Positions 15,527 to 36,490 of a stretch of DNA of 64,000 nucleotides are shown one piece after another. Location: NCBI GenBank assembly GCA_017983635.1, contig JAGOBA010000003.1:186001-250000 (forward strand), given 5' to 3'. A program made the position numbers and the translations under genes. Positions within the stretch are counted from its first letter, which is position 1. Each line of letters begins with the position of its first letter. The notes beneath the pieces are model-generated. The model had not been told where the DNA came from, did no database searches, and was given only the letters and a program-made list of their open reading frames with translations. The DNA is from Alphaproteobacteria bacterium. Lineage in GTDB: Bacteria > Pseudomonadota > Alphaproteobacteria > Micropepsales > Micropepsaceae.

Positions 15527-16393
15527 ATGAACAAGCTTCCCGCCGAAAAGCGCGCCCAAATCCTCAACATGCTCGTTGAGGGTTCGTCGATGCGCTCCGT
15601 CTCACGGGTGGCGGATGTCTCAATCAACACGGTGACGAAGTTGCTCGTGGATGCAGGCAGTGCCTGCGAAGCCTTCCACGACCGCGCCGTGCGCAATGTC
15701 AAAGCGCGCCAAATCCAAGCCGATGAAATCTGGAGTTTTTGCTACGCGAAGAAAGCCAACGCGAAGCAATCGAAGAAGCCGGAAGAGGCTGGCGACGTTT
15801 GGACGTGGACGGCCATCGATAGCGACACGAAGCTGATTATCTCGTGGACGGTTGGCGATCGTAGGTCCGGATCGGCTCACGATTTCATGTATGACCTAGC
15901 GAGCCGCATCACTGGCGATTGCCAGCTAACGACGGACGGTTTGCACCACTACCCGCTGGCAGTGTTTCGCGCGTTCGACGGCAAGATCGACTACGCGCAA
16001 GTGAACAAGGTGTTCGCCGCAGCGCCAGTTGGCAGTCCCGAGCGCCGCTATAGTCCCGGTGTCGTCGTCGGGATGAGTAAGAAGGCCGTTTACGGTTCGC
16101 CCGCGATGGGGCAGGCGTCCACGTCGCACGTTGAGAGACACAATCTGACCATGCGCATGTCGATGCGCCGCTTCACGCGCTTGACGAACGGCTTTTCAAA
16201 AAAGGTCGCGAACCACTGTCACACGCTGGCGCTGTATTTCGTTTGGTACAACTTCGTGCGCATCCATAAGACGCTCAAGGTGACGCCAGCAATGGCAGCA
16301 GGCGTCGCGGACAGGCTTTGGTCCATGGCTGATATCGTCTCGCTAATCGACCAAGCGGAAGCTATTGGCCGGCAGGACGCGGGCGAGCAATGA
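15527..16393 (+). CDS. IS1-family-like DDE transposase
   Basis: A 288-residue single-protein transposase related to the IS1 family. It has an N-terminal HTH ([20 protein letters not shown]...[10 protein letters not shown], residues 4-45) and a DDE domain with IQADEIWSF (about 62-70), LTTDGLHHY (about 130-138) and VERHNLTMR (about 203-211), then [11 protein letters not shown] near the C-terminus. No InsA-type zinc finger and no -1 frameshift are present, unlike classical IS1. I could not find flanking inverted repeats or a target duplication, so it may be a domesticated or repeat-less transposase. Its 3' end overlaps a convergent gene by 32 bp. Confidence 0.85.
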
Positions 16394-19707: not shown

Positions 19708-19904
19708 GGGTTGGCCCCATTCTTTGTTACTGGTCCGCCCGAAACACGCGGGCATTCGGTGAGCCGCCCGACCTAACAGGCCGGTGTGACAGGTGTGCGA
19801 AGGGCGACTCAAATCATCCGTACACCAACGTTCGGGAAGATGACGGAGAGTTCATTTAGGGGCAAGCCCGAACGAGCGTGACGACCGTCGCATCGCTGCT
19901 TTCC

Positions 19905-20762
19905 TTAGGTTTCCAGACGGCTTTCCCAGTAAATCCTGCCCAATTTGGCAGAAATTGGCCCTGGCTTTCCCTCAGCCACCTTGTGGCCATCAATTCCGGT
20001 GACAGGCATCGCGCCCAGGGAAGCGGCGGTGATGAAGGCCTCCCGGGCGGCCTTGGCCTCGGCCACGGTGAAGGCGCGTTCGTCGAATTTGATCCCGAGC
20101 TGGCGGCAGAGCGGGATGATCTCGCCCCGGGTGATGCCAGGCAGGATCGCGTTCGAAAGCGCGCGGGTTCTGAGTACGCCTTGCGCATCGACGATCCAGG
20201 CGTTGGTCGAAGCGCCCTCGGTCACGAGCCCTTCCCCATCGACGAACCACGTCTCGAATGCGCCCGACTCGCGTGCGTGCTGTTTGGCGAGGACGTTCGC
20301 AAGCAGCGCGGTCGATTTGATATCGCAGCGCGCCCAGCGGCTTTCGGGTTGGGTCACGACGGCGACGCCGGTGGCGGCGAGCTTCTCGTACTTTGAGATG
20401 TCGAGATTTCGTGCGGTCACAACCAGCGCCGGCTTCACGCCGGCCGCCGGGAAGCCATGATCGCGCCGGGCGACACCACGCGAAATCTGCACGTACACAA
20501 GTCCATCGCTCACCCGATTGCGGCGCACGGTCTCGCGCATGATGAGGCGCAGCTGCGCATCGCCGACGGGGCGCGCGATCTTCAACTCGCCAAGCGAGCG
20601 CGCGAGCCGCTTCATGTGCGGGTCCTCGTCGATCAACCGCCCTGCCCGCACGGCGCAGACTTCGTAGACGCCATCCGCGAACTGATAGCCGCGATCGTCG
20701 ATGTGCACCGTCGCCTGCGCGAAGGGGACATAGCGGCCATTGACGTAAGCGACGCGCGCCAT
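19905..20762 (-). CDS. dat: D-amino acid aminotransferase (fold-type IV PLP enzyme)
   Basis: Transaminates D-alanine/D-glutamate or related amino acids, feeding D-amino acids for cell-wall synthesis. The 285-residue protein begins MARVAYVNGRYVPFAQ, with the catalytic PLP lysine in RCDIKST (Lys149) and the cofactor phosphate loop LPGITRGE near residue 210. The EGASTNAWIV stretch is characteristic of class IV aminotransferases. A D-Ala-type enzyme is most likely, but a branched-chain or aminodeoxychorismate role is not excluded. Its first 20 or so codons and upstream 30 bp are duplicated at 23119-23220. Confidence 0.92.
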   Translation of the reverse strand: MARVAYVNGRYVPFAQATVHIDDRGYQFADGVYEVCAVRAGRLIDEDPHMKRLARSLGELKIARPVGDAQLRLIMRETVRRNRVSDGLVYVQISRGVARRDHGFPAAGVKPALVVTARNLDISKYEKLAATGVAVVTQPESRWARCDIKSTALLANVLAKQHARESGAFETWFVDGEGLVTEGASTNAWIVDAQGVLRTRALSNAILPGITRGEIIPLCRQLGIKFDERAFTVAEAKAAREAFITAASLGAMPVTGIDGHKVAEGKPGPISAKLGRIYWESRLET

Positions 20763-20814
20763 CAGTTCGGTACCCGTTCGGCGCTGTGGCACGAAATTCG
20801 ATGGAAAATCATCT

Positions 20815-20887
20815 GTAACAACGTAACAAGGGCAGAATTACGCGAAAAATTCCGTAACTTTGCCGCTACATCCGCGTAACTTGTAAC
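20815..20887 (-). repeat. Cluster of five GTAAC (GTTAC) motifs upstream of dat
   Basis: GTAAC occurs at 20815, 20823, 20854, 20876 and 20883, far more often than expected in 73 bp. The cluster lies about 50-125 bp before the dat start. It could be a multi-site operator, or chance in an AT-richer patch. Confidence 0.4.
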
Positions 20888-21220
20888 GGGGTGGGTGGGG
20901 CGCGTGTCGCGGCGCTCGGCGCGGATTTGCGCATTGTCGAGGTTCGTTTGACGAGGCGTCGAGGTTGGTGCGCATGTCATGCGAAACGCTGTTTGCCCGG
21001 TGATTATTACTTGGAACAAATATGGAACATCGTGGTTGCGTTTGCAAGCGAAATCTTGCCGCGGCGCGTCTGCGTCGGTGAGTTCCGGACCGAGGCTGCC
21101 ACGGCACTGCCAACGGACGCGGCAATAGGTCAGAACCATCGTGACAATCGGCAGTGACGCGCGCGCGTTGTGTTGCATTGCACTGCCTGCAATCGCCGGA
21201 ATGCATTTTCGTGCCACCAC

Positions 21221-21259
21221 GGTAACACCGGACCATTATTCGATGCGCCTGGTGTTACC
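21221..21259 (+). promoter_or_regulatory. Inverted repeat (possible operator) before the coiled-coil gene
   Basis: Perfect 9-bp arms GGTAACACC and GGTGTTACC with a 21-bp spacer, about 48 bp before the gene start. It shares the GTAAC core with the cluster upstream of dat, hinting at one regulator for both; this is inference. Confidence 0.4.
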
Positions 21260-21306
21260 CAACCCAAGTCCTGCCATGCTCGGCAAGAGACGCTTGGGGG
21301 ATGGAT

Positions 21307-22995
21307 ATGCACCTCATTCTTCGCATCGCACTGCTGCTGATCGCGCTGCCTTTCGCGCAAGCGCACGCTCAACCGCAAACGGTGGAAACACAAGTGCAGC
21401 TTGGCGTGCGCGAGGCGGGCAAGACTCACCCGCTTGCGTTGAACGCGCAGAACGCAGACTGCAAAGAGCCCCTCGACTTTCGCTTCACGTCGAACGCCGC
21501 CTGGCTGAAACTTCCCGCCGACCCGGTGGTGCGCGGTGTCGCGATGGGGCAATCGCGCGCCCTATTGGCAACGATCGACCTCACCAATGTGTCCCCAGGG
21601 CGCTACCAGGCGACGGTTGACGTGCAATGCGAGAACTGCGGCTGGCTTCTCTTCCAAAGTTGCAAGATCGACAGACAACAGATCAGCTTCGTCCTCGACG
21701 TGACTGCCGCGCCGCAGCCGCAGCCGCCCGGCGTGCCGGGCGGGAACGCGCCCGCTTCGCGCGCGATCGATCCGAGCGATCCGCGCCTGCCGCCCGCCAT
21801 CGGCGAGCGTTTGAAGAAAGCGTACGACGACCGTGACGCGGCCGGTGCTCAGAACCCGTGCGAGGAAGCGTTGAAGAAGCTCGCCGCGGAAGCAAAGGCG
21901 GCGCAAGACGCGGCTGACGCGCTGAACAAGCAGGCGGACAACGCAGCGCAAGCCAAGAAAGACATAGAGGAGAGGCTCAAGAAGGCTGAGCAAGACGACA
22001 AGGCAGCGGGCCGAGCCCTCGAAGAGGCACGTGAGCAAGAAGCAAAGGCCGCCAAAGAAGCGGAAGCCATGCAGGTCGGCAAGCAATTTGAAAGCGACAG
22101 AGAAAAGGAGGCGCGTCTCAAGGCGGAAGCCAAGGCCAAAGCCGCCAAGGAGAAAGCCGACAAAGCACAGGACGCGCGAAGGGAGGCCCAAAAAGCTCTT
22201 GATGATGCGCGCAAAGCGGCCGCCGATGCGACAGCCGCAGCTGCAAAGGGCCAGCCGTCACAAGCCGAGCGTAACGCTGCCGACGAGAAGGCCAGGGCGG
22301 CGCAGGCGGCGCTCGCCAAGCAGCAGGCGGACTGTGACAAGGCCACCGCCGACGCCAAAGCGAAAGCTCAAGCCGAAGTCGATAAAGCCGAGAAAGCGGC
22401 ACGGGATGTGTTGGCCGCTCTCCGCTTGGCGGCCGAAAAGGAGTTGAACGACGCTCAACAAGAAGCCGACAGATGCAAGTGCCACCTGGCGAGGCTGATC
22501 CTCACGCAAAAGCGCGCAATCGAAGCGCTCGTGAGGCTCGGCGCCATCACGGGCGAGCAGCAAAGCGCGCTGAAGCAATGGGCCGACAAGCTTAGGGAGA
22601 TCAATGAACTTATCACAATGCTGCCGGACTGTCCTTACAAGGAGCTGGTCCAAACATTGATGAGCTCGGTTACCTTCGTATTGGACATGCTTGAGTACGC
22701 GCAGCCGGTGTTCAACGCCGAGCTGATCCCCGGTACGCGGTCTCACATATTTGGCGACAAGACGGCCGAAAAAACCAAAACCTTCTTGAGGAACGAAGGC
22801 TTGACGGGCGAAGGCAAGGGCGGCGACGGAATAACGGCCGACGAGGTCTATCAGCAGATGAAGAACTACGCCGACCCGGATCCGGATTCGATGAAGAAGC
22901 TGATCGACGATCTCGACGCGGCGAAAAGTGCCTGCCATGCGGCCGATGCGAGGCTTGAACGTGCAAAGGACGATGCGGCGAAAGCCAGAAAATGA
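21307..22995 (+). CDS. Secreted protein with N-terminal Cys-rich beta domain and long Ala/Lys coiled coil
   Basis: Unrecognised exported protein of 562 aa. A signal peptide ends near residue 22 (AQAHA-QP). Residues 25-140 appear beta-rich with several Cys (ADCKE; QCENCGWLLFQSCK), suggesting disulphides. A Pro-rich linker leads to a very long Ala/Lys/Glu coiled coil (about 165-400), then a helical part with paired Cys (DRCKCHLARL) and a C-terminal helix. The composition recalls TolA-like or envelope-spanning spacers, but there is no N-terminal TM anchor or TolA domain. The second ATG is preferred (GGGGGA six bases before). It lies in the segment bracketed by the dat duplication. Confidence 0.7.
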   Translation: MHLILRIALLLIALPFAQAHAQPQTVETQVQLGVREAGKTHPLALNAQNADCKEPLDFRFTSNAAWLKLPADPVVRGVAMGQSRALLATIDLTNVSPGRYQATVDVQCENCGWLLFQSCKIDRQQISFVLDVTAAPQPQPPGVPGGNAPASRAIDPSDPRLPPAIGERLKKAYDDRDAAGAQNPCEEALKKLAAEAKAAQDAADALNKQADNAAQAKKDIEERLKKAEQDDKAAGRALEEAREQEAKAAKEAEAMQVGKQFESDREKEARLKAEAKAKAAKEKADKAQDARREAQKALDDARKAAADATAAAAKGQPSQAERNAADEKARAAQAALAKQQADCDKATADAKAKAQAEVDKAEKAARDVLAALRLAAEKELNDAQQEADRCKCHLARLILTQKRAIEALVRLGAITGEQQSALKQWADKLREINELITMLPDCPYKELVQTLMSSVTFVLDMLEYAQPVFNAELIPGTRSHIFGDKTAEKTKTFLRNEGLTGEGKGGDGITADEVYQQMKNYADPDPDSMKKLIDDLDAAKSACHAADARLERAKDDAAKARK

Positions 22996-23118
22996 CAAGG
23001 GACCTGCTGCGGCGTAGCGGCTCTCGCCGCTGGATGCGGCGATCGAGAGACGAGACGGTTCGTGCGCAGAAGCTAGGCGGGCTTACGCAATCCGCCCCTG
23101 GGTTTTGCGCCCGGGTGC

Positions 23119-23220
23119 ATCGTCGATGTGCACCGTCGCCTGCGCGAACGGGACATAGGGGCCATTGACGTAAGCGACACGCGACCTCAGTCCGGTACCC
23201 TTTCGGCTTTGTGGCACGAG
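23119..23220 (-). pseudogene. Duplicated 5' fragment of dat, start codon lost
   Basis: About 100 bp nearly identical to the dat 5' end at 20694-20795, including codons for RVAYVNG.YVPFAQATVHIDD and 30 bp upstream. The ATG has changed (CAT to CCT on the plus strand) and the frame ends shortly after, so it is a remnant. Its upstream part encodes the last nine residues (CHKAERVPD) and the stop of the PQQ dehydrogenase gene. Length excludes an ordinary IS target duplication. Confidence 0.8.
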
Positions 23221-25271
23221 ATGCGAGACGCGTACCGCCCGCTTAACATCGCGCCAACGAATACAGCGACAAGGGTCGAGAATCCGAACCACCATAGAGT
23301 TGGTCGCTCAATCAGCCGCGAGACTTGAATCAACAACAGCGGCGACACTTCGTCGAGCGAGAAAGCAACAAGCGTGTCCCCCGGCGTCGTGCCGATGATC
23401 TCATGCCCGCCCGCCGCGATCGCCACGTATTGGCGGCCGTGCCAGACATAGGTCATCGGCGTCGCTTGGCCGCCCGCAGGCAGACGGCCACGCCAAAGTT
23501 CCGACCCGCTCTTTGCATCGAATGCGCGTAGATAGTTGTCCATCGCCGCACCGATAAACAGAACGCCGCTCGCCGTCACGATCGACCCGCCCATATTCCC
23601 CGATCCGCGCGGCAGGAACACGTCGCCGAACGGTACGGTGTCTTCAAGCGTGCCGAGCGGACGCTCCCACACCACCTCGCCCGTGCGCATGTCGATGGCA
23701 TGCAGCTGCCCGAACGGCGGCGGATTGCAGGGCGCGCCGAACGGCGACGCGAGCAGCGTGCGTTCCACCGCGTAAGGCGTGCCCGACTGACTTGGCAGAC
23801 CGCCGCGCCGAATGTCGCGATTGCTCGTGTCTTCGTCCGCGCGCCGCCGCAAGCGGATGAGACCGGCCGCGTTGTTGGTGTTGACATAAAGCGTTTGCGT
23901 GCGTGCATCGAATGCACCACCGCCCCAATTCACGCCGCCGCTGATGAAGGGGTAGTGTATGGTACCCTCGAGACTGGGCGGCGTATAGATGCCGTCGTAG
24001 CGATAGCGGCGGATGAGATCGCGGCAGATGGCACGATCCCAGGGCGTGACGCCCCACGCTTCGTCAGGCGAGAGTGTTGTCGGAACAAGCGAGCGCGGCG
24101 CGACCGGGAACGGCTGCGTCGGCGAATACCATTCGCCTGGCACGTCACCCTTGGGAACGGCGCGTTCCTCGACCTCAAACACCGGCTCTCCCGTGTCGCG
24201 GTCGAGCGTGAACACCAAACCCATTTTCGTGGCTTGGATGACGACGTCGCGATTGCGGCCGTCGTGATCGATCGTGGCGAGTAACGGCTGTGCCGCCACG
24301 TCGTAGTCCCACAGATCGTGATGCACGGTTTGAAAGTGCCACGCGACGCGGCCTGTTTCCGCATGCAGGGCGACGACCGAGTTCGCGTAGCGATTGTCGC
24401 CCGGTCGCAGGCCGCCATAGTGATCCACACTCGGGCTTGAGGTCGGCAGGAACACCAAGCCGCGCGCTTCGTCGGCCGACATCAGCGACCAGACATTTGC
24501 ATGGCCCGTATGATCGGCACTGCCGTCGAGCCAAGTCGCGCGTGCGGGATCGGCGGGATCGCGCGGCACCGGATCGAAACGCCACAACGGCAAACCCGTG
24601 CGCGCATCGAACGCACGCACGGCGCCGCTCGGCGCCTTCTGGCGCAAGCCGTCGCTGATGGCAGAGCCTACAATGACGACACCGCGCACGACGATGGGCG
24701 GCGAAGTGATCTGGATTTCACCGCGATGGAGCAGCGCCTTGCCCGGATCGAGTGTCGCAACTCCGCTCTTGCCAAAGTCATGACAGGGATTGCCGGTTTG
24801 CGCGTCGATAGCGATCAGACGAAAGTCGTTCGTGCCCATCAAGATGCGCGTGCGGCAGGCAGACGATGGTCCGGCCTTCGGATCCCTCCACTGCGTCACC
24901 CCGCGACAGGAATAGCCGTTGCCGCTGGGTTCGATGTCGGCGGAATGAGACCGATAGCGCCAGAGTTCGCGCCCGGTACCGGGATGCAGAGCGACAACAT
25001 CGTTGAATGGCGTGCAAAAGATCAGCCGGTCTTCGACCAGGATCGGCGTCGCTTGGAACTTCCATCGCAGACCGCGCGCCCGCGCCAAACGCGCATCGCC
25101 GGTCGAATAGCTCCAGGCGCGCGCAAGGCGATCGATATTCGCCGGCGTGATTTGCGCGGCGGCGCTCGCTCGCTGCCCGCCGAGATCGCCGCCGACATGA
25201 CCCCAGTCCTGGGCCTGTGCCGCCAGCGCAAGCGCGGCGAGCACAAATAGCGCGAAAGAACCGCGGATCAC
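23187..25271 (-). CDS. PQQ-dependent dehydrogenase-like beta-propeller protein (glucose dehydrogenase type)
   Basis: Periplasmic quinoprotein-like oxidoreductase of 694 aa. A signal peptide (about 1-20) is followed by eight-bladed propeller repeats with tryptophan-docking motifs (ALHPGTGRELWRY, AFDARTGLPLWRF, ALHAETGRVAWHF, AIDMRTGEVVWER, AFDAKSGSELWRG). The GGVNWGGG and GGHEIIGTTPGD segments resemble membrane glucose dehydrogenases, but there is no N-terminal five-helix anchor and no CXXCH haem site. Instead a single TM helix occurs near residues 665-685. The substrate is unknown. The final residues come from the duplicated dat upstream segment, so the tail is probably a fusion. Its start overlaps the methyltransferase stop by 4 bp. 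Confidence 0.85.
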   Translation of the reverse strand: MIRGSFALFVLAALALAAQAQDWGHVGGDLGGQRASAAAQITPANIDRLARAWSYSTGDARLARARGLRWKFQATPILVEDRLIFCTPFNDVVALHPGTGRELWRYRSHSADIEPSGNGYSCRGVTQWRDPKAGPSSACRTRILMGTNDFRLIAIDAQTGNPCHDFGKSGVATLDPGKALLHRGEIQITSPPIVVRGVVIVGSAISDGLRQKAPSGAVRAFDARTGLPLWRFDPVPRDPADPARATWLDGSADHTGHANVWSLMSADEARGLVFLPTSSPSVDHYGGLRPGDNRYANSVVALHAETGRVAWHFQTVHHDLWDYDVAAQPLLATIDHDGRNRDVVIQATKMGLVFTLDRDTGEPVFEVEERAVPKGDVPGEWYSPTQPFPVAPRSLVPTTLSPDEAWGVTPWDRAICRDLIRRYRYDGIYTPPSLEGTIHYPFISGGVNWGGGAFDARTQTLYVNTNNAAGLIRLRRRADEDTSNRDIRRGGLPSQSGTPYAVERTLLASPFGAPCNPPPFGQLHAIDMRTGEVVWERPLGTLEDTVPFGDVFLPRGSGNMGGSIVTASGVLFIGAAMDNYLRAFDAKSGSELWRGRLPAGGQATPMTYVWHGRQYVAIAAGGHEIIGTTPGDTLVAFSLDEVSPLLLIQVSRLIERPTLWWFGFSTLVAVFVGAMLSGRYASRISCHKAERVPD

Positions 25272-25909
25272 GGCGCTCGCCTTTTTGCGACGATCAACCG
25301 TGGTTGCTGCGAACTAGGCGTGACCTTCGCGGTCGCACTCCCCGTCGTCACCTCGAACGCCGCGTCGCCAAGCGCGGCAACGACGGAGGCGAATTCCGGG
25401 AAGCGATAGACTTCGCTTGGAAACGCATTGATCGCGTCCTTGTCCGCCGCGTCGCGAAACAGGAGAGCGAGCGTCCCGCCAGGCTTCGTGACCCGTGCGA
25501 TTTCTCCCAAGGCGGCACGCAAGTCATGCCAGAAATACACCGCGTGAACGCAAAGCACCTTGTCGAACGACGCCTCTGCGAACGGGAGATGTTCGGCAGG
25601 CGCAATGGCGACGCGCACGCGGCCTGCCCTGACGGCTGCGGCATTGCGCTGAACAGCGACCTCCACCATCAACTCGGAGGGATCCACGCCGGCAACCAGA
25701 CCCTCGCTTACCCTCGCCGCGAACATTTCAAGCCCATGCCCGGGCCCGCAGCCGATGTCGAGCACATGATCCGTGATTTTAACATCGAGCGAGGCGATTG
25801 CGCGTCGATTGGCTTCGCGTGTCTCGCGCGCCATGATGAACGCGACGATGCGGCCCAAGATCCCCGTTGCGTTGCGCGCCTGTTCGGCAATGAACCTCGG
25901 CCTACGCAT
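25268..25909 (-). CDS. Class I SAM-dependent methyltransferase
   Basis: A 213-residue methyltransferase with motif I VLDIGCGPGHG (about 49-59), an acidic residue in GVDPSELM (motif II), IAPAEHLPFAEASFDKVLCVHA (motif IV) and RVTKPGGTLALLF (motif VI), as in the UbiE/COQ5-like Methyltransf_11 group. Small-molecule substrate likely, identity unknown. It overlaps the preceding small membrane gene by 8 bp and the following PQQ dehydrogenase by 4 bp, so all are translated from one mRNA. An in-frame upstream ATG is less likely because it lies inside the membrane gene. Confidence 0.88.
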   Translation of the reverse strand: MRRPRFIAEQARNATGILGRIVAFIMARETREANRRAIASLDVKITDHVLDIGCGPGHGLEMFAARVSEGLVAGVDPSELMVEVAVQRNAAAVRAGRVRVAIAPAEHLPFAEASFDKVLCVHAVYFWHDLRAALGEIARVTKPGGTLALLFRDAADKDAINAFPSEVYRFPEFASVVAALGDAAFEVTTGSATAKVTPSSQQPRLIVAKRRAP

Positions 25910-26132
25910 CGGAGCGCGCCTGCTTCTGGGCAATCCTGATGCCGGCAACGTAGCAAGGGATGAACCCTAGGACCGTGGCGGCGAACCCGACAGAGAGAGC
26001 GTTCACGCCCGCGATGCAACTCTGCGGGATCATGAAGGCGAAGGCGATGAACACGGCCGGCAGCACGTGCAACGCGAGAGGGGCGTAGAGGACGCAACGC
26101 CGCTGGAGCCGAGGGTTGAGGCGCACCTTCAT
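25902..26132 (-). CDS. Small two-helix membrane protein (76 aa)
   Basis: A short protein with two predicted TM helices (about 18-38, LALHVLPAVFIAFAFMI, and about 45-65, LSVGFAATVLGFIPCYVAGI) and basic ends. No family recognised. It is sandwiched in the operon: its ATG overlaps the desaturase stop (ATGA) and its stop lies within the first codons of the methyltransferase. The tight fit supports a real gene despite its small size. It may assist the membrane-bound desaturase, which is inference. Confidence 0.65.
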   Translation of the reverse strand: MKVRLNPRLQRRCVLYAPLALHVLPAVFIAFAFMIPQSCIAGVNALSVGFAATVLGFIPCYVAGIRIAQKQARSDA

Positions 26133-27043
26133 GGCCTGCGAGCAACGGCGCGACGAGCGCGGTAGGCGAACCAGGGCCACGCCAAGGGAGACAGGATTTG
26201 TCCGATCAAGTTTCGGGGTATGGGATCGAACGTGATCCCGACGTCGGCGATCGTCCTGCGTGATGGATCGGCATAAGTATCGAACAGGTGGTCGAACAGC
26301 ATTGTGAACGGCGAGAGATTGCGCGAACCGTCGGAAATGTCCTTGGCATGGTGCAGCCAGTGGACGGCGGGGGTGGCGAACAGCCAGTTGACGACACGTG
26401 GTAGACGCGTTTCGACATTCCAGTGGTTGGTGTTGCCGAAGGCGTTGAGAAGCGCGGCGATCCAGAACAACACAGTCGCCGGTGCACCCAACACGACAAG
26501 CACACCCACCGCGAAGCAGGCGCGCACGGCCGCCTCCAAGAAATGCAGGCGCCCTGCCTTGAAAATGTGCATGCGATCGGGGTTGTGGTGCAGCGCATGA
26601 ATGGGCCAAGCCCACGCCCAGGCGTGATAGGCGCGGTGTTTCCAATAGTCGGCAAAGTCGTAGAGAATCACCGCCAGGGCGACTTGACCCCAAAGCGGCC
26701 AGTTGTCGGGCCACACACTAAAGGGCGAAGTGATTGCCAAGGCCGAAACCGATGCGGCGACGCCGATCGTCAAGGCGGCGGCACCAATTCGGGCCCCGAC
26801 ATCCAAAAGCGCCCCATGGACGAGATCGTTGATGACCTGGCCGTCTTGACGCCAATCCCAATCGGGCCGCGCCGGCATGAGCACCTCAAGCCCGGCGATT
26901 AAGATCAGATGGACGACTGTCAGGCCGAACAACCACGGGGCGGGATTGAGGCCTAGCTCTTGGGTGATGGCAAAGCCGACAAGCAGCGCGCCGAGCATTG
27001 CCGGCCACACAATAAATGATGCAACGAATCTTAGCGCCCGCAT
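26129..27043 (-). CDS. Sterol desaturase / fatty acid hydroxylase family protein
   Basis: Integral membrane di-iron enzyme of 304 aa that hydroxylates or desaturates lipids. The histidine boxes are present: HRAYH (HxxxH), HALHHNP (HxxHH) and HWLHH (HxxHH), spread over the second half between hydrophobic segments. Substrate cannot be deduced; hopanoids, carotenoids or fatty acids are possible. It heads a chain of overlapping genes on the same strand: small membrane protein, methyltransferase, PQQ dehydrogenase. The membrane-bound AraC-type regulator lies just upstream. Confidence 0.88.
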   Translation of the reverse strand: MRALRFVASFIVWPAMLGALLVGFAITQELGLNPAPWLFGLTVVHLILIAGLEVLMPARPDWDWRQDGQVINDLVHGALLDVGARIGAAALTIGVAASVSALAITSPFSVWPDNWPLWGQVALAVILYDFADYWKHRAYHAWAWAWPIHALHHNPDRMHIFKAGRLHFLEAAVRACFAVGVLVVLGAPATVLFWIAALLNAFGNTNHWNVETRLPRVVNWLFATPAVHWLHHAKDISDGSRNLSPFTMLFDHLFDTYADPSRRTIADVGITFDPIPRNLIGQILSPLAWPWFAYRARRAVARRP

Positions 27044-27149
27044 GAACCGTCCTTCCGCCGCATATCGCCGCGACGGGGAAATTCATGGCTGGCACCGTGT
27101 TGGAATTCTCGCCCAGTTTCAAAAACGGCTAGGCCTTTTAGGGAAACGG

Positions 27150-28187
27150 CTAGGGTTTCTCGCGGCCGAGGGTCGATTGGCGGAATGCCGTGGGCGTTTG
27201 TCCCGTTTCGGCTTTGAAGACGCGGTTGAAGACGCCTAGTGATCCAAAACCCGAATCGAGCGCGATCGTGGAGACCGGCACTTGGGCCTGGCTAGGGTCC
27301 GAAAGAGCAGCCTTAGCCTCTGCCAGCCGATATCCGTTGACGAACGCCGCGAAATTGCGATGCCCCAACTGATGGTTGATCAAGTTTCGTAGCCGGTGTT
27401 CTGCGACGCCCAGCTTGCGCGCGACATCTGCCACCGCCAATTCCGGCTCGCGATGCAGCCGGTGCTGGAGGAACAGGTCTTGTAGTGGCTCCACGAGCGC
27501 ATCCGTCACGGGCGCGGCTGCTGGGATGGCGATCGCGCGGGCCGGAGCGAAGAGGTCCGCCGTTGGCCCGCGGACGAACGCGAGGAGTGTGGCTACCGCA
27601 AACCCGGCCAACGCCGCTGCATTCAGCAAGCTAAGGGGCGCCGGCGGCGGAGCCCCTCGAAAGCCCAACTCGGAAACCCCGATGGCGAGTGCGTAGAGCA
27701 CGGCCCCGCCCATGAGGATCGGGCGAAGTCTCCTTCTTTGCTCGACCAAGTCATCGCGATGGCCGCGCCAGATCGTCCAGGCTGTTGCAACAGCGAAGCC
27801 GATCGTTCCAAGCGTCAAAACGAGGAAAAGCGCCGGGCGGTTTGCGGCGCGAGAAACTTGAGCGAGCCAGAAAATCGCGGAGCCGACAAGGGCATACGCG
27901 ACGTATCCCAACCAATGGGTACGCGTCGGCTTGAACCCATCTTCGAACAAGCGACGCGCAAACAGCCAAAACATCGCCGGGTTGGCGATGCAAATCGCGA
28001 GGATGAGCAAATGCCAATCGACCCCGGTCGGTGGCGCGAACGTCGGCGCCGAACAGACCACATAGCTTGCAACGCCTACGGCGAAAGCGGCGCCAACGCG
28101 CTCCCGCGCGTCGCGCAAGAGCAGGACCGCCCACAACAGTAAGAGCGCGATTGCCGCACCGCGCAGACCAAGTTCAAGTGCCGCCAT
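27150..28187 (-). CDS. AraC-family regulator with N-terminal seven-helix membrane domain
   Basis: A 345-residue membrane-anchored regulator. Residues 5-210 contain about seven hydrophobic helices and the last 110 residues form an AraC HTH domain, with the first helix-turn-helix in LAVADVARKLGVAEHRLRNL and the second in VPVSTIALDSGFGSLGVFNRVFK. This architecture senses a membrane or extracellular signal. It lies 106 bp upstream of the desaturase operon on the same strand and may control it. Confidence 0.87.
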   Translation of the reverse strand: MAALELGLRGAAIALLLLWAVLLLRDARERVGAAFAVGVASYVVCSAPTFAPPTGVDWHLLILAICIANPAMFWLFARRLFEDGFKPTRTHWLGYVAYALVGSAIFWLAQVSRAANRPALFLVLTLGTIGFAVATAWTIWRGHRDDLVEQRRRLRPILMGGAVLYALAIGVSELGFRGAPPPAPLSLLNAAALAGFAVATLLAFVRGPTADLFAPARAIAIPAAAPVTDALVEPLQDLFLQHRLHREPELAVADVARKLGVAEHRLRNLINHQLGHRNFAAFVNGYRLAEAKAALSDPSQAQVPVSTIALDSGFGSLGVFNRVFKAETGQTPTAFRQSTLGREKP

Positions 28188-28359
28188 GTCTTATACTAGC
28201 GCGCTGCGCCGAAATACGAGTAAAGATTTCGCCGGTGCCTTATCGCAGACCGTTTGCAGGCGGTCCCCTGCGCCGCGAAGCTGCTGCATTTGGCGTTTGA
28301 GGGCATGGGCGCTAACGTCTGCCGGCACATCAAGACTCAAGTTTGAAAAGGTGCATTCG

Positions 28360-28800
28360 ATGAAACTGCTGCCTCTCACCGCACTTGCGGCTCTGTCGCT
28401 TGCTCTGTCGTTGCCCGTCGCTGCCGCCGAGAAATGGCTGAAGATCGATCCCAACGATCCGTTCGCTACGGAGGGGGTGTTCCACATGTTTGACGTCGAC
28501 GGTGCGATGGAAGACAGCGCGACCGGGTTTGTCGCCGCAACCATGATCTATGTGAAGCCGGAAACGGCAGCGCCGGGCGTCGATACCTCTCGCCACGTTT
28601 GGGCGTTCGATTGCGCCGGGAACAATGTCTTCTACGTCTCCGTCGCCACGAAGGCGGACGGACCGAAGGTCGCCGCCGATTGGCGCACCAAACCGCAGTC
28701 GCTGGCCGAACCCGTCATGGGTGGGGTCACGAACTTGTTCGGCAAGAAGCTCTGTGCCCTCAAGGGTTCATGGCCGAAGGGCACATTGCCGCTGAAGTAA
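28360..28800 (+). CDS. Secreted hypothetical protein (146 aa)
   Basis: A clear signal peptide (residues 1-22, ending VAAA-EK) precedes a compact domain with two Cys (AFDCAGN and KLCALKGS) that may form a disulphide, and WKTKPQS-like and DWRTKP stretches. No enzyme motif; it resembles the small surface/periplasmic unknowns common in Alphaproteobacteria. AAAGGTG precedes the ATG by a suitable gap. It is divergent from the AraC-type regulator, so it may be under its control. Confidence 0.75.
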   Translation: MKLLPLTALAALSLALSLPVAAAEKWLKIDPNDPFATEGVFHMFDVDGAMEDSATGFVAATMIYVKPETAAPGVDTSRHVWAFDCAGNNVFYVSVATKADGPKVAADWRTKPQSLAEPVMGGVTNLFGKKLCALKGSWPKGTLPLK

Positions 28801-28852
28801 GCCGCGCACGGGTCGATGCAGACCCTTGAGGTCGACGCATCAGCTGCGGTGC

Positions 28853-29791
28853 CTACCTGATCGCCACCGGGTTGATCACCGCCTGCACGGCGCCTTTGAA
28901 CTTCGGTTGACCAAGGACGAACAGGAACTCGGTTGCGCCGTCCGCCGCCAGGGGCGCGGTGTTCATCGTCTCCAGGATATAGACACCGTTTTTGGCGAGC
29001 AGGATCTGGTGCACCGGAAACGCTTCGGTCTTTTCCTCGAAAGGCACGGCTTCGACGCCCCAGGTGTCCGCGCCGACCGCGACGACACCGCGCGCGGCCA
29101 ACAGAGTAGCGCCCTCTTTGCCGAGGCCGGGCTCGCCGCCCATGTACTTCGCCTTGTCCTTGTCGGCGACGGCGAGCCAGCCTGTGTGGAAGATCACCAC
29201 GTCGCCCTTGCCGATGGTCACGCCCGCCGCTTTCTCCGCGGCTTCGATTTCCTTCTTGTTGAACACGCGGCCCGCCGGTAGCTGCTTCACCTTCGCGAGC
29301 TTCGCCATGTCGAGCAGAATGCCACGCGTCGCCATCGGGGGAACGCCTTCGGTGCCGAGCTTTTTCAAGCCGTTCGGCGCGACAAAGTCCTTGGCATGAT
29401 TGCCGTTATAGTAGCGATGATTGATCCCCAAGTGGCCCAGACCGTCGAGTTGCGAGCCGATGCCGACATAGGCCATCAGAATGTCATCGTTGCCGGTCGC
29501 GATGTTCGACCCCAAGGTCTGTCCTGTGCCGTCATTCGACTGCGTCACCACAATTTGAAACGTGCGCGGCGGATAGGCGGGCGACTCCGGCCCGGTGATA
29601 ACTCCCAACGAATAGACCTTGCCCAGCTTCACAAGCTTTGCCGCCGCCAGCGCTCCCTCCGGCGAAAGATTGTTCGCGGCGCCGATCGTGTCCTTGGCCC
29701 CATATTTCGACGGATACCAATCATCGGCCGCGAGAGCGGCTCCGGCGGACAACACGGCGGCGATAACGGCAATGCTGCGAATGGCGTTCAT
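28853..29791 (-). CDS. Cyclase family protein (KynB-like metal hydrolase fold), exported
   Basis: A 312-residue protein of the cyclase family (PF04199), which includes bacterial kynurenine formamidase. A signal peptide (1-22, AALAAD) shows it is periplasmic, unlike KynB. The metal-site region reads GSQLDGLGHLGIN with further His in NHRYYNGNHAKDF and FHTGW near residue 200. Family members hydrolyse amides, lactones or esters. Substrate unknown. The Lrp regulator and a degraded stretch lie upstream on the same strand. Confidence 0.85.
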   Translation of the reverse strand: MNAIRSIAVIAAVLSAGAALAADDWYPSKYGAKDTIGAANNLSPEGALAAAKLVKLGKVYSLGVITGPESPAYPPRTFQIVVTQSNDGTGQTLGSNIATGNDDILMAYVGIGSQLDGLGHLGINHRYYNGNHAKDFVAPNGLKKLGTEGVPPMATRGILLDMAKLAKVKQLPAGRVFNKKEIEAAEKAAGVTIGKGDVVIFHTGWLAVADKDKAKYMGGEPGLGKEGATLLAARGVVAVGADTWGVEAVPFEEKTEAFPVHQILLAKNGVYILETMNTAPLAADGATEFLFVLGQPKFKGAVQAVINPVAIR

Positions 29792-30318
29792 TTTATTCGG
29801 TCTCCCGTAGATTCTTTTAAGCTTACACAGTGGGGAGGCTTGCGCCGTCGCCCCTCATCAGGCGCTCCTTGGATTCCATACAGCGCCGCTGCGCCGTGGT
29901 GCACTCGGCCGGCATCATCTTGCCTTGGTAGCGCGCGGCGGCAATTCAGACGCGCTTCAACACGTTCGTCAACTGATCGACCGCAGCGGTGGTCGCGTAA
30001 TAGATATTGCCAGGCCGCGGCGACCACGCGGGACCAGGCGTGCGCTCGCCGTCACGCGCATGTCCGTGTTGCCTTCCGCCGGGATAACGGCGTGAGCATC
30101 CCGATTGATAATTTCGCGGCTCGATATGAACCAGCGACCATGCGCTTGGCTCCCACCGGTTCGTGCCGGCGCCGCCAGAATTCCTCGTTGAATTGCCCTG
30201 AGTTTTGCCCGCATCCTGTCGCGCCGGGACGCCTGCCGAAGCAAGAGCGCACTGTCCACCCATTTGTTCGTCATCGGTTGCGGCCGCGGCCGCCATAGCA
30301 ACCAGATCAACCTGCAGC
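29792..30318 (-). pseudogene. Degraded or unassigned region between the cyclase and Lrp genes
   Basis: No intact gene is recognised. Several minus-strand frames carry short protein-like pieces, such as MAFELQVDLVAMAAAAAT at the start, EEFWRRRHEPVGAKRM in another frame and GNIYYATTAAVDQLTNVLKRV at the end, which look like one protein broken by frameshifts. The last piece is reminiscent of a class V aminotransferase end, but this is weak. The first frame begins inside the Lrp gene's final codons, as expected for a gene once coupled to its regulator. Confidence 0.35.
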
Positions 30319-30798
30319 TCAAACGCCATGTTGCACGGGCGTAAACAAGCTGCGCTTATAGGTTTGTAGCACAGCGCTCGTTACAAACTTTTTGACATTG
30401 GGATTCTCTTTCAACATCTCCTCCATCAGCGCATCATACTGCTCGATGGACGCTGCGGTCACAATCAAGATGAAGTCGGATGCGCCGGTGACATTGTAAG
30501 CCTGCTGCACTTCCTCTGTGCGATCGAGCCACTGGCGGAATGCAGCATAAAGATCTACACGCTTCCGCTCGATCTCAACGCCGACGACAAAGGTCTGGGA
30601 TTGCCCAACGAGATTCGCTCTGATTACGGCAACTTGTCCCACGAGCACCCCCTCTTTCTTGAGGCGCGCCAGCCGGCGCTGCACGGCTGAAGGGGACGCG
30701 CCGACTAGACCCGCGAGCGCATCAGTGGTCAGGCTCGCGTCGCGCTGGATCGCGCGCAAAAGATTGCGATCTATGTCGTCGATGCCGGTTTTAGTCAT
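30319..30798 (-). CDS. Lrp/AsnC family transcriptional regulator
   Basis: A 159-residue regulator with an N-terminal winged helix (DDIDRNLLRAIQRDASLTTDALAGLVGASPSAVQRRLARL; residues 6-48) and a C-terminal RAM ligand-binding domain (about 70-150, with VQQAYNVTGASDFILIV). It would respond to an amino acid or related ligand and is adjacent to what looks like a broken gene and a cyclase. A longer N-terminus by 12 residues is possible. Confidence 0.92.
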   Translation of the reverse strand: MTKTGIDDIDRNLLRAIQRDASLTTDALAGLVGASPSAVQRRLARLKKEGVLVGQVAVIRANLVGQSQTFVVGVEIERKRVDLYAAFRQWLDRTEEVQQAYNVTGASDFILIVTAASIEQYDALMEEMLKENPNVKKFVTSAVLQTYKRSLFTPVQHGV

Positions 30799-30904
30799 TA
30801 GCGCGGGGTCTCCGTGGGCCAACCCTGCACGCAAGTTAGCAAATGCGGGGGCATCCGTCAGAAAATTTCGCGATACTGAACGCGTAACTTGAGCAGAGGA
30901 TCCA

Positions 30905-31309
30905 GTGAGCTACGTAAGATCGGGGCTAGAGCTGGGGCGCAGTGCGCTCGCAATGGTGTCAGGATACGCCACGTTTGTGGTTGGCGCCTTTGTGGCGCAA
31001 GAGACCATTCTTGGCGGCGTGAGCTATCACGATTCACTCGGCAAACTGGTAGCGGCGGGGCTGCTGACGCCGCTCGCGGCCATCATTGGCGGCGCACTTA
31101 CTGCCGCGCTCGCGGGTACGCGCCCCTTTTTGCACATCCTGCCTATGTGCGCGCTGATTATCGTGGAAACGACCTACCTCTACACAAGCGGCAAGGTCGA
31201 CGGGCCACTCTGGTTCGAAGCTGCGGCTGGAGGATCCTTGGTTGTCGGCGCCGTGATCGGGGCTTGGGCCTGGAGTCGGGCGCGCCCTATCGCACGCGCT
31301 CCGGTCTGA
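30905..31309 (+). CDS. Hypothetical four-helix membrane protein (134 aa)
   Basis: A small integral membrane protein with four hydrophobic segments (about 14-34, 47-68, 76-95, 106-125), no recognisable family. It starts with GTG, preceded by AGAGGA. It is divergent from the Lrp gene (about 100 bp), so the two may share a regulatory region. Function unknown. Confidence 0.7.
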   Translation: MSYVRSGLELGRSALAMVSGYATFVVGAFVAQETILGGVSYHDSLGKLVAAGLLTPLAAIIGGALTAALAGTRPFLHILPMCALIIVETTYLYTSGKVDGPLWFEAAAGGSLVVGAVIGAWAWSRARPIARAPV

Positions 31310-31379
31310 CGCACCTCACCAACTGACGGTATCTATTCCGAGCACGGAAGCCCCGACGGAGGCTCGCGTTTCAGGAAAG

Positions 31380-32915
31380 TTACTTCACCTCCACGAACCG
31401 CTTCCGCAGTTCGAATTTCAGCACTTTGCCGGCGGGGTTGCGGGGGAGTGCGTCGACCGTTTCAAGGCGCGACGGCAGCTTGTAGCGCGCGAGGCGGTCG
31501 GTGCCCCAGGCGCGCAGTGCTTCCAGCGTTAGTGATTGGCCGGGCTTGAGGGCTGCGACGGCGACGACGGCTTCGCCCCACTTTTCGTCCGGTTGGCCGA
31601 AGACCGCGACCTCCGCGATCGCGGGGTGCGCGTAGAGAACGGCTTCGACTTCGGCCGGATAGACATTTTCGCCGCCGGTGATGACCATGTCCTTCACGCG
31701 GTCGCAAATGAAGAGAAAGCCGTCGGCGTCGAAGTAACCGACGTCGCCGGTGTGGAACCATCCGGCCGGATCGATGGCCGCGGCGGTTGCCTCGGGCTTG
31801 TTCCAATAGCCTTTCATGATGTTCGGGCCCTTGCACAGCACTTCGCCGCGCGCGCCCGGCTCGGTCAGGAACTTGCCGTCGTCACTCGCGAGCGCCAGTT
31901 CAATGAAGAAGCCCGGTTTGCCGGCAGAGCCAACCTTCGCGGCACCCCATTCGCTGGTCAGGAACGTCACCATCGGTGCGGTTTCGGTCAGGCCGTAGCC
32001 TTGATTGATCGGCAGTCCGCGCTTCGCATAGAGATGCAGCAGCGGTTCGGGCACCGGTGCGCCGCCGCAGACGATCATCTTCAGGCTCGACAGATCGGCG
32101 CTCGCGAAGGCCGGGTTCGCGCTCACCGCCAGCAGCATCGCAGGTACGGCGAACGCGCTCGTCACCTTGTACTTCATCACGTCTTCGATCCACTTCGCTG
32201 GGTCGAAGCCGCGGTGAAGCACGACCTCGGCGCCCTTCTGAAACGCGGCCAGCGTCGTGACGTTCAACCCGCCGATATGGAAGAGCGGCGCCACCACCAA
32301 GGTGATGTCGTTCTCGTAGGCGTCCATGGTCAGCAAGCTCATGCTGTTGTTCCACCAGATATTGCCGTGGGTCAGCATGGCGCCCTTTGGACGGCCGGTG
32401 GTGCCGGAGGTGTACATGATGACCGCCACCTCTTCGGCGTCGATCGGCACGGCGTTGGACAGCGGTTCGGTCTTGCCGACGAATGTAGCGAGCGAGGTCC
32501 AGTTCGGTGCATCAACGTCGGCCGAAAGATACTGCCGGCAGGGCAGCTTGGCGCGGATGCTGTCGATGACGCCGCGATGCGGGCTATCGGCGACGATGGT
32601 GTGAACGCCGGCGTCGTTGATGATGTAGTCGAGTTCGGGCCCAGTCAGGCGGAAGTTCAACGGCACGAAGATCGCGCCCAGCCGCGCCGCCGCGAACATC
32701 GTCTCGAAGAACGCCGGCTGATTGTAACCGATGAACGCCACGCGATCGCCGCGGCAGACACCGTGCGCTTTCAGCGCGGCGGCCAGCCGGTCAAAACGTT
32801 CCTGCAGCTCAGCATAGGTCGCGGTCTTGCCTTCGAAGGTCAGCGCCCGGCGATTGGGCGTGCGCCGGCTGCGTTGCAAGAACCAATTACCAAGGCTGAT
32901 GTCAGGTGCGGTCAT
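31380..32915 (-). CDS. Long-chain/aryl acyl-CoA synthetase (AMP-binding family)
   Basis: ATP-dependent acid:CoA ligase of 511 aa. The adenylation P-loop YTSGTTGRPKGAML (about 167-180), GYGLTETAP (about 301-309), the TGD motif in WFHTGDVGYFD (about 389-399) and the C-terminal catalytic Lys in RNPAGKVLKF (near 498-503) are all intact. Substrate not determined. It stands alone, convergent with the four-helix membrane gene. Confidence 0.92.
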   Translation of the reverse strand: MTAPDISLGNWFLQRSRRTPNRRALTFEGKTATYAELQERFDRLAAALKAHGVCRGDRVAFIGYNQPAFFETMFAAARLGAIFVPLNFRLTGPELDYIINDAGVHTIVADSPHRGVIDSIRAKLPCRQYLSADVDAPNWTSLATFVGKTEPLSNAVPIDAEEVAVIMYTSGTTGRPKGAMLTHGNIWWNNSMSLLTMDAYENDITLVVAPLFHIGGLNVTTLAAFQKGAEVVLHRGFDPAKWIEDVMKYKVTSAFAVPAMLLAVSANPAFASADLSSLKMIVCGGAPVPEPLLHLYAKRGLPINQGYGLTETAPMVTFLTSEWGAAKVGSAGKPGFFIELALASDDGKFLTEPGARGEVLCKGPNIMKGYWNKPEATAAAIDPAGWFHTGDVGYFDADGFLFICDRVKDMVITGGENVYPAEVEAVLYAHPAIAEVAVFGQPDEKWGEAVVAVAALKPGQSLTLEALRAWGTDRLARYKLPSRLETVDALPRNPAGKVLKFELRKRFVEVK

Positions 32916-33113
32916 GCGTGTTCCTCCAAGGCTGCTCTCGAGGCAGTGTTAGAGCCGTTAGTAGCACAAGACCGGGCGCGGTGGCGTTGCTCCTCCCGTG
33001 GAGCCCCGGCTTGCCAAGCACTCCAGATCGCCACAATTCCACACGAATTGTTGATCCAACTCGCGGCCCGGCCCACGTTCTAATGACCCTCAACAGCCAG
33101 GGGGTTTCAAGAC

Positions 33114-35162
33114 ATGCCGAAATCAATTCGCCTCAATCGCCGCCAGTTGATGGCCAAGGCAGCCGGCCTTGGGGCGGCGCTTGCGCTCCCCGGTGCGTCG
33201 GCAGCCAGCGCCACGAAGGCGCCGACTGAGCGTCGCGATTTGTTTCCGCAGGGTGTCGCGTCGGGCGATCCGGATTCGACCAGCGTGATTCTGTGGACGC
33301 GGCGCCCGCCTGATGTTGTCCGGTCGGATAGGCTCGTTGTTGAGGTGTCGAGCGATCCACGCTTTCAGAGCATTGTGGCGCGCGGGGTGTCGGCTGTTTC
33401 AGAGAGCACCGATTGGACGTGCCGGTTCTTGGCGGCACGTCTGCAGCCCGCGCGCGAGTATTGGTATCGCTTCATCGACGAGCACGGAAATGCGAGCCGC
33501 GTCGGGCGCACGCTGACTGCACCGGCTGAGAATGACGACCGGCCGGTTCGCTTTGCTTTTGTGAGTTGCCACGACGTGACGATCGGCGCGGGCAACGCCT
33601 ATCGGCGCATGAAGTACGAGGACGAACGGCGTCCACGCGAGGAACAGCTCGGCTTCGTGCTGCATCTCGGCGATTTCGTCTACGAGATGGTTTGGTATCC
33701 GGAGGAAACGCCCGGCGGCATTCTGCGCGGCCGGCGACTTCGCGACATGGTGCGCTATCCGCAGGGCGAGAAGATCGGCAAGTTCTATGTGCCGGCGAAC
33801 CTTGCCGACTATCGCGCGCTCTACCGCGGCTATCTCACGGACCCCGATTTGCAGGACGCGCGCGCGCATTGGCCGTTCGTCCCCGTGTGGGACAATCACG
33901 AGTTCTCCTGGCTAGGCTACCAGAGCCAACAGGTGTTCGGCGGTAAAGTCCGCCCGGCGCAGCGCGTCAAAGTCGCCGCGAGCCAGGCTTGGTACGAATA
34001 TCAGCCGGCACGCGTGCGCAAGCCGGGCTCGGGCGATGCCTTCGAGGCGCCCGCGGTTCAGGACGCACCGCTGACGACGCTGGATGAGCGCGGCTTGGGC
34101 TTGGAGCCGAACAACCTGACCGCGGTGAATGCACTCAAGATCTACCGCGCCTTCCGGTTCGGCAAGAACGTCGACATGATCCTGACCGACAACCGGTCGT
34201 ACGCGTCACCACCCGCCGACGGCAGCTCGCTTCCGGAGATCGGGTTCGACGCGATCCCTGAAGACGTCAACGAAATTCTCGACATGGGTCGCGCGTATAA
34301 CGGCGGTTCGCCTCCGGCAACGCTGCGGATCGGCAATGCCGACGTCGCAAACACGCAGAAGGATGCGCCGCCGCAAGGCTATCTCGGTTTGGAGCAGCTT
34401 GCCTGGTTCAAGCATCGCCTGCGCAACGCGAAGGCGCCGTGGAAGATCTGGGGCCATTCGTTCGGAACGCTCAGCTGGCGCATCGATCCTCAGAACGCGC
34501 CGGCGCCGCATAGAAAGGATTGGCCGAGCAACGGATACGGCGTCCAAAACGGCGGCAACGTCGTCGAGCATTCGGACATCTTCGGGATGTTGCAGAAAGA
34601 AGGCATCACGGGGCTCGCGATCGTGGCCGGCGACAAACACTCGTTCTGGGCGGGCTATCCCAGCAACACGCTGCCACCGCGCCCCTTCGAGCCCGTCGGC
34701 GTCGAGTTCGTCACGGGCTCGATCACCGCGCAGGGAGCGGCCGAGGTGCAGGAACTGACAATGAAGAAAGACAAGCCGTTGCGCGCGCTCTACATCCACG
34801 ACAAGCCGGATGGGTCGATGGAGAGCACGTACGGCATGACCTTGCTACACGGCGTGAAGTCGTCGCTGACGCTCGCAGAAACGCACGACCCGGCGCGCGC
34901 GCGGGCTGTGCGCAACCCGGACGTCTCGCCTCATTTGAAGTTCGTCGACTTCGGCGGGCATGGCTACGCGACGGTTACCGCGTCGCCGCAAGAACTTGTG
35001 ACGGAGTTCGTGTGCATCCCGCGTCCGCTCGAGCGCAGCGCCACCGACGACGGCGGGCCGCTCGTCTATCGCGTGCGGCACCGTGTGCACCTCTGGCACC
35101 CCGGCCAACGGCCGCAGCTTGTGCAGGAGGTCGTCGAGGGCGATCCGGGACTTGCGATCTAA
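33114..35162 (+). CDS. phoD: PhoD-like alkaline phosphatase / phosphodiesterase, Tat-exported
   Basis: Periplasmic metallophosphatase of the PhoD family, 682 aa, releasing phosphate from organic phosphates. A Tat-like signal (NRRQLMAKAAGLGAALALPG) starts the protein, followed by the N-terminal beta domain (about 40-145). The catalytic domain has FVSCHD, LHLGDFVYE, WDNHEFSW and GDKHSFWAGY metal-binding segments. It is longer than classical PhoD because of a C-terminal extension. It stands alone; a Pho box is not evident in the 200-bp region upstream. Confidence 0.9.
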   Translation: MPKSIRLNRRQLMAKAAGLGAALALPGASAASATKAPTERRDLFPQGVASGDPDSTSVILWTRRPPDVVRSDRLVVEVSSDPRFQSIVARGVSAVSESTDWTCRFLAARLQPAREYWYRFIDEHGNASRVGRTLTAPAENDDRPVRFAFVSCHDVTIGAGNAYRRMKYEDERRPREEQLGFVLHLGDFVYEMVWYPEETPGGILRGRRLRDMVRYPQGEKIGKFYVPANLADYRALYRGYLTDPDLQDARAHWPFVPVWDNHEFSWLGYQSQQVFGGKVRPAQRVKVAASQAWYEYQPARVRKPGSGDAFEAPAVQDAPLTTLDERGLGLEPNNLTAVNALKIYRAFRFGKNVDMILTDNRSYASPPADGSSLPEIGFDAIPEDVNEILDMGRAYNGGSPPATLRIGNADVANTQKDAPPQGYLGLEQLAWFKHRLRNAKAPWKIWGHSFGTLSWRIDPQNAPAPHRKDWPSNGYGVQNGGNVVEHSDIFGMLQKEGITGLAIVAGDKHSFWAGYPSNTLPPRPFEPVGVEFVTGSITAQGAAEVQELTMKKDKPLRALYIHDKPDGSMESTYGMTLLHGVKSSLTLAETHDPARARAVRNPDVSPHLKFVDFGGHGYATVTASPQELVTEFVCIPRPLERSATDDGGPLVYRVRHRVHLWHPGQRPQLVQEVVEGDPGLAI

Positions 35163-35192
35163 CTCGATGAGTCGCGGCGATCGTATTCGCCC

Positions 35193-35426
35193 TCAGTCAT
35201 CCCACGACGGCCGTTCGGTGAGGTATTCGCAGCTGTAGTCGGCATCCTCCTCGTTCGGCGGCAGGACGGCCTCACATTGTGCTTGGCTTTCGAACGGTCC
35301 TCTCCAGACGAAGGGGCCGACGATCGTGTCGGCGACTTGGTACCAACCCGGTGTCGTCCAGACGGGCGCGGCGGCGGCTGCACCGGCGAACGTCAGCAGC
35401 AGGACCATGGCGACGAGCTTGCGCAT
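35193..35426 (-). CDS. Small secreted hypothetical protein (77 aa)
   Basis: A signal peptide (1-19, AGAAAAA-PV) and a 58-residue mature part rich in Trp/Tyr/acidic residues: WTTPGWYQVADTIVGPFVW, then two Cys (AQCEAVLP and DYSCEY) likely disulphide-bonded. No known family. Convergent with phoD. Confidence 0.68.
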   Translation of the reverse strand: MRKLVAMVLLLTFAGAAAAAPVWTTPGWYQVADTIVGPFVWRGPFESQAQCEAVLPPNEEDADYSCEYLTERPSWDD

Positions 35427-35553
35427 CCCGAGAGGGTATCAGAGCGGTGGCGGGCTTGTCGAACGCACCCGGGATTGGGCCGGGTTTAGGCGGCATTGCC
35501 CTCCCTCATCGCGCCGCGATAGAGCTACGTTCACCAAACGAGAGTCAACGGCA

Positions 35554-36000
35554 ATGAAAACAGCAATCATGTTCGGTTTGTGTGGCGCGCTGGCGATTCT
35601 GCCGGCGGCCGGTGCCGACGCGTTCTCAGCAAGCGACAAAGCCGCGATCTTCAAGGCGGCCGGGTTTAAATCGAAGGGCGGCACATATGTTCGCTGCGAG
35701 GACGACGCGCCCTCATACATGGCGGGCTTCATCGAAGCCGACGATCTGAACGGCGACGGCACAATCGAGGCCTTCGTGCGCGAGAGCAGTTCGTTCTGCT
35801 ACGGCCATACGGCCGAAGCGTTCGTACTGGTCGGCAAGAACGCTAAGGGCGCGTGGACGATCTTGCTCGATGAGGTCGGCATGGCAGTCGTGCTTGAAAC
35901 GAAGGCGAAGAACGGCTGGAAGGACATCGAGGTCGGCGGCCCGGGTGCCGGTCCGTTTCCGAAGTTTCGCTACAACGGTGCGAAGTACGTGAGGAAGTGA
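35554..36000 (+). CDS. Secreted hypothetical protein (148 aa) with a Ca-loop-like stretch
   Basis: A signal peptide (1-24) followed by a small domain. The segment EADDLNGDGTIEAFVRESS resembles FG-GAP/EF-hand-like DxNxDG calcium loops, and the region near CYGHTAEAFVLVG is plausible beta structure. Function unknown. I started at MKTAIMFG because it begins the signal peptide; the longer frame lacks one. Confidence 0.68.
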   Translation: MKTAIMFGLCGALAILPAAGADAFSASDKAAIFKAAGFKSKGGTYVRCEDDAPSYMAGFIEADDLNGDGTIEAFVRESSSFCYGHTAEAFVLVGKNAKGAWTILLDEVGMAVVLETKAKNGWKDIEVGGPGAGPFPKFRYNGAKYVRK

Positions 36001-36022
36001 CGCGCGGCCGAGGTGGCGACCG

Positions 36023-36490
36023 GTGCTTTTCTACCTAGCTCAGAATTGCGCGGCGACGTTGGCGGAAGGGCTTGCGGAGTACTATGCCGCACATCCTTTC
36101 TTGAAGCGGGGCGATGCACTCTCTCCCGCGGCGCAGACGTTTTTCCGGTGCCACGATACGGTACACGTGGTGTACGGGTGCGATACGTCCCTGCCCCACG
36201 AGGCGATTGTGAAGCTCTCGAGCTTCTTCGGCACCACGGAGGGGCTTCGCGTTATGCGCGGCTACCGGCTCTACGAATCCCTCGACATCTACCGGCAGCT
36301 CAGCGCGGCCGATATCATGCATACGATCGCGGCCGCTCCCTTCATCGTTCCGCGCACGATTTGGCGCTGCGCCCGGCAACGGCGGCGTTGGCCGTGGGAC
36401 TCCTTCGACGCGTTCCTCGCCACGCCGCTGCGCGAACTCCGCGCCGACTTTGGAATACGGGTGGCAACGACTGCCGGCCGGTCGAACTAG
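36023..36490 (+). CDS. Coq4-like protein with HDxxH-x11-E motif (155 aa)
   Basis: A 155-residue protein with RCHDTVHVVYGCDTSLPHE, which contains HDxxH followed exactly 11 residues later by Glu. This is the zinc-binding signature of Coq4, a ubiquinone-biosynthesis protein in eukaryotes and some bacteria. The rest (YYAAHPFLKRGD, VMRGYRLYESLDIYRQL) is helical and not clearly Coq4. It starts with GTG after a GAGGTGG ribosome site, and its end overlaps the convergent ntrX by 4 bp. A ubiquinone link is inference. Confidence 0.6.
   Translation: MLFYLAQNCAATLAEGLAEYYAAHPFLKRGDALSPAAQTFFRCHDTVHVVYGCDTSLPHEAIVKLSSFFGTTEGLRVMRGYRLYESLDIYRQLSAADIMHTIAAAPFIVPRTIWRCARQRRRWPWDSFDAFLATPLRELRADFGIRVATTAGRSN

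Follow-up and report, generated by a model that had tools for sequence, protein, structure and literature searches.

Gene-fragment relics and partial duplications occur at rearrangement junctions in bacterial chromosomes. The case described here, from a window of 64,000 nucleotides (the whole stretch of alphaproteobacterial DNA that was analysed), resembles such relics in being a short, non-functional direct duplicate of a gene 5' end that lies at a junction of relocated segments. It does not differ from them in kind; the relic here additionally supplies the stop codon of its neighbour. A second described counterpart is the formation of recent protein C-termini when translation reads through into new sequence (PMC4494051). 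There, as at our locus, a coding frame is extended into sequence that is non-coding in that frame; there the sequence is the gene's own downstream non-coding DNA, whereas the tail described here stems from the duplicated 5' portion of a different gene together with that gene's intergenic repeat. With a paralogue in the same genome as control, the locus illustrates how duplication of a neighbouring gene's 5' region can provide a protein with a tail. We consider it probable that the second copy of the repeat is a rearrangement scar, in which a partial duplication of the dat side was trapped at the junction with a dehydrogenase gene and gave that gene its new tail. The scar is an ordinary and well-resolved one with a small consequence for the end of one protein; the original side of the repeat is settled, and no known principle is changed.

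The repeat consists of two direct copies (20694–20801 and 23119–23226), which a repeat search and base-by-base comparison showed to match over 108 bp with 11 mismatches and no gaps (90% identity) at a spacing of 2,425 bp. The initial annotation had described about 100 bp with roughly ten differences; the repeat is real, and its length exceeds that claimed by about 6 bp. Its edges are abrupt on both sides. No homology extends beyond the 108 bp on either side, where the flanks align no better than shuffled sequence. That the repeat is a coincidence or an assembly artefact has a negligible probability: a whole-genome search matched the second copy with E = 7.8e-36, the alignment scored 161 where shuffled sequence reached at most 24, and the 11 base differences, which include changes private to each copy, lie within a 482-kb contig. 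These tests refute both versions, and nothing was found in their favour. No Rfam match was found within 19800–23400. Elsewhere in the window, another 97/108 self-match (56324/57713) corresponds to a pair of lipoyl-domain-like coding sequences.

Copy 1, on the minus strand, comprises codons 1–23 of dat and 39 bp upstream. The dat gene itself (19905–20762, minus strand) is intact and encodes a D-amino-acid transaminase-like class IV aminotransferase (Pfam Aminotran_4, E 3e-47), which belongs to the D-amino-acid transaminase subfamily by its NCBIfam NF005209 score (392.4, cut-off 320). Copy 2, also on the minus strand, is a dead fragment of the dat 5' end, in which a dispersed element described below is reduced to its last ~26 bp. 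Its start codon reads AGG in place of ATG, in agreement with the initial annotation, and with only 23 codons and an Arg10-to-Pro change it fails as a functional dat paralogue. The frame upstream in this copy is indeed the end of a PQQ dehydrogenase (23187–25271, minus strand), closing with ...ASRISCHKAERVPD. Two details assigned to copy 1 did not hold: the overlap between stop and start is TGATG rather than ATGA, and the supposedly equivalent CHSAERVPN belongs to a non-coding frame in which no dehydrogenase ends.

The dehydrogenase, of 694 aa, is a PQQ-type quinoprotein (Pfam PF01011, E 1.6e-228). It scored 760.7 bits against the PF01011 cut-off of 26.7, covering profile positions 1–595 of 595, and therefore belongs to that family. 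Its TIGR03074 score (membrane-bound, glucose/quinate/shikimate dehydrogenases) was 682.2 bits with profile positions 1–150 unmatched, below the curated cut-off of 832.65. It shares with the dehydrogenases of these two families the full beta-propeller and, with some members in the genus, a C-terminal membrane helix; it differs from them in the TIGR03074 score and in a tail unlike that of any relative. This acquired tail, ISCHKAERVPD plus the stop codon (23187–23222, minus strand), is read from dat-derived sequence, and the gene owes its final 9–11 codons and its stop to repeat copy 2. An 88%-identical paralogue on contig C8 of the same genome ends RWWAPRSPRLG and has no such tail; the two genes align up to ~23225 and diverge where the repeat begins. 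Nor did we find the tail in about 20 other relatives, a few of whose sequences are cut by contig ends. The family has highly variable C-termini: some proteins stop right after the propeller (AFALPN), and others possess both a membrane helix and a basic terminus (LIKRWRRK). The dehydrogenase of the window retains the C-terminal membrane helix and has a basic tail, so no loss of function would be expected; its function is probably unchanged, and the new end presumably neutral.

Which copy is the source can be read from the dispersed element, a full-length example of which (20776–20890, minus strand; repeat model R1, E 7e-27) lies directly upstream of dat. At copy 1 this genus-specific repeat, intergenic and ~115 bp long, is present in full, while at copy 2 only ~26 bp of it are present before dehydrogenase sequence begins. 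It is therefore simpler to take the dat side as the source, of which copy 2 is a truncated derivative. Copy 2 is also derived at two element sites on which all 12 other element copies agree, and at codons 1, 3 and 10 of dat, where 9–10 of 10 orthologues side with copy 1. Copy 1 is in turn derived at codons 2 and 13, at which most orthologues match copy 2. Copy 2 was therefore not made from today's dat.

The same element bears on the first alternative raised by the initial annotation, in which the dehydrogenase cluster once ran into dat and the 2.4-kb coiled-coil segment was inserted later, with a target duplication of ~108 bp. Direct-orientation copies do flank the coiled-coil gene, and that gene is lineage-specific. 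However, the element runs intact for ~90 bp past the inner boundary of copy 1 and stops at copy 2; since it is cut there, a later insert would have needed to rebuild exactly the missing ~90 bp. In addition, the 2.4-kb segment contains no transposase, the joined dehydrogenase–dat order occurs in no genome examined, and we know of no transposon that a 108-bp target duplication would match. We regard this insertion as distinctly unlikely. A transposon target-site duplication was likewise rejected as a class, with no relative examined carrying an empty dehydrogenase–dat site and the element complete on one side only.

The synteny of dat with hfq, hflX and mazG matches that of relatives and marks it as orthologous; hfq adjoins dat in 12 of the 12 relatives whose dat region was fetched (hflX also in 11). 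Eight of the ten genus relatives (L069 and L072–L078) have the end of ntrX no more than ~16 bp from the dat ATG, as at the L069 junction, GGGTAATGAGC. The gap is ~0.3 kb in L071, and L070, with only 763 bp of sequence upstream of dat, shows no ntrX there. Among 80 other alphaproteobacterial dat loci, an ntrX-like gene occurs in the flank of 77 and lies within 300 bp upstream of dat in 54. The ancestral order thus has ntrX directly before dat. In our genome ntrX (36487–37914, minus strand), the direct predecessor of dat in most genus relatives, is 15.7 kb away, the interval 20763–36486 interrupting a junction that is common across alphaproteobacteria. Genes between 28.3 and 36.5 kb have counterparts of 77–84% identity that are scattered over contigs C6, C7, C9 and C21 of the close relative G004, so that the interval is not a single block but a mosaic of relocated genes. 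Separately, a transposase-like ORF, of DDE type by its look, is found at 15527–16393, ~3.5 kb past the dat 3' end.

A dehydrogenase joined to dat, the order that the initial annotation suggested looking for, was found neither among the genus relatives, which have ntrX before dat, nor in the flanks of the 80 further alphaproteobacterial loci (0/80). This also weakens a scenario in which a circular molecule carrying the dat 5' end, the element and the coiled-coil gene integrated by a single crossover into a dehydrogenase–dat ancestor. While such an event would account for the direct repeats and for the complete element in copy 1, it requires that undocumented ancestor and a donor already provided with a dat fragment, and the 2.4 kb contain no recognisable plasmid or phage gene. 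We find it very unlikely. The second alternative of the initial annotation, that a duplication gave the dehydrogenase a new C-terminus, is supported and right in substance: the tail is missing from the paralogue and the relatives examined, the fragment coincides with it, and at positions that dat orthologues conserve copy 2 has changes that disable it.

We therefore favour the scar, and propose the following course. The ancestral ntrX–dat junction opened in this lineage, and 15.7 kb of other genes gathered there; the dehydrogenase cluster and the coiled-coil gene are among them, as is a copy of the dispersed element just upstream of dat. During one rearrangement, the piece from dat codon 23 to ~26 bp into the element was probably duplicated in direct orientation and came to rest where the dehydrogenase gene has its 3' end. 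A few native codons at the end of that gene are gone, and it is now read through 9–11 codons of the fragment to a TGA that formerly overlapped the dat start, the outcome being a short new tail after its C-terminal membrane helix. Because both copies face the same way, an inversion was not the direct cause. A tandem duplication of a ~2.4-kb unit followed by a deletion up to the dehydrogenase could leave this pattern, and templated insertion or template switching at a non-homologous junction could do so equally; the breakpoints showed neither microhomology nor a mobile-element signature. We infer the order of events, as no intermediate genome is known and the nearest orthologue of dat shares only 76% identity.

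The repeat copies have diverged by 0.10 per site, compared with a dS of 0.38–0.58 between the duplicated clusters (~0.58 between the dehydrogenases). On this basis the scar appears to postdate the split between the dehydrogenases and between their clusters, although the comparison sets selected against unselected sites. The cluster in question (23281–28188, minus strand) comprises the dehydrogenase, a methyltransferase, a fatty acid hydroxylase and an AraC regulator, and has its second copy at G000:C8:55169–60078 (85% identity). This quinoprotein cluster of four to five genes is thus present twice in the genome, and at either end the match stops at a coding border.

Of more interest than the scar is the dispersed element, a by-product of this analysis that has a nearly fixed length and may deserve its own study. 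There are 18 copies in its own genome (L097–L108 among them), 28 in G007 and 22 in G009, and none outside the genus among 37 genomes searched. In an alignment, 13 own-genome copies span 110–111 bp between the same end motifs. The element contains GTTAC boxes at 11-bp spacing, GTTACAAGTTAC-N6-GTAGC-N6-GTTAC, boxes that may be linked to an OmpR-family regulator of the kind of Caulobacter UzcR. A literature search for the GTTAC motif returned no printed consensus, and one on dispersed intergenic repeats nothing on point. At least six copies sit 10–61 bp upstream of a start codon, the downstream genes being dat and, by N-terminal reading, genes for enoyl-CoA hydratase-like, XseA-like, serine hydrolase-like, RHH and IlvD-like proteins; the remaining copies lie between convergent or divergent genes. 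As an RNA the element gave a weak fold with one compensatory pair and no covariation support. It could be a mobile regulatory module of the genus that brought dat under different control once it had been parted from ntrX, and whose dispersal or recombination caused the duplication and thereby a selected quinoprotein tail, but we think this unlikely.

Between the two repeat copies lies the coiled-coil gene (21301–22995, plus strand), which encodes an Ala/Lys/Glu-rich protein. The protein matched no Pfam or NCBIfam family, and no match to the gene was found in 10 genus relatives. It carries a likely signal peptide and is probably secreted. Its N-terminal ~150 residues recur at two paralogues in its own genome (L067 and L068).
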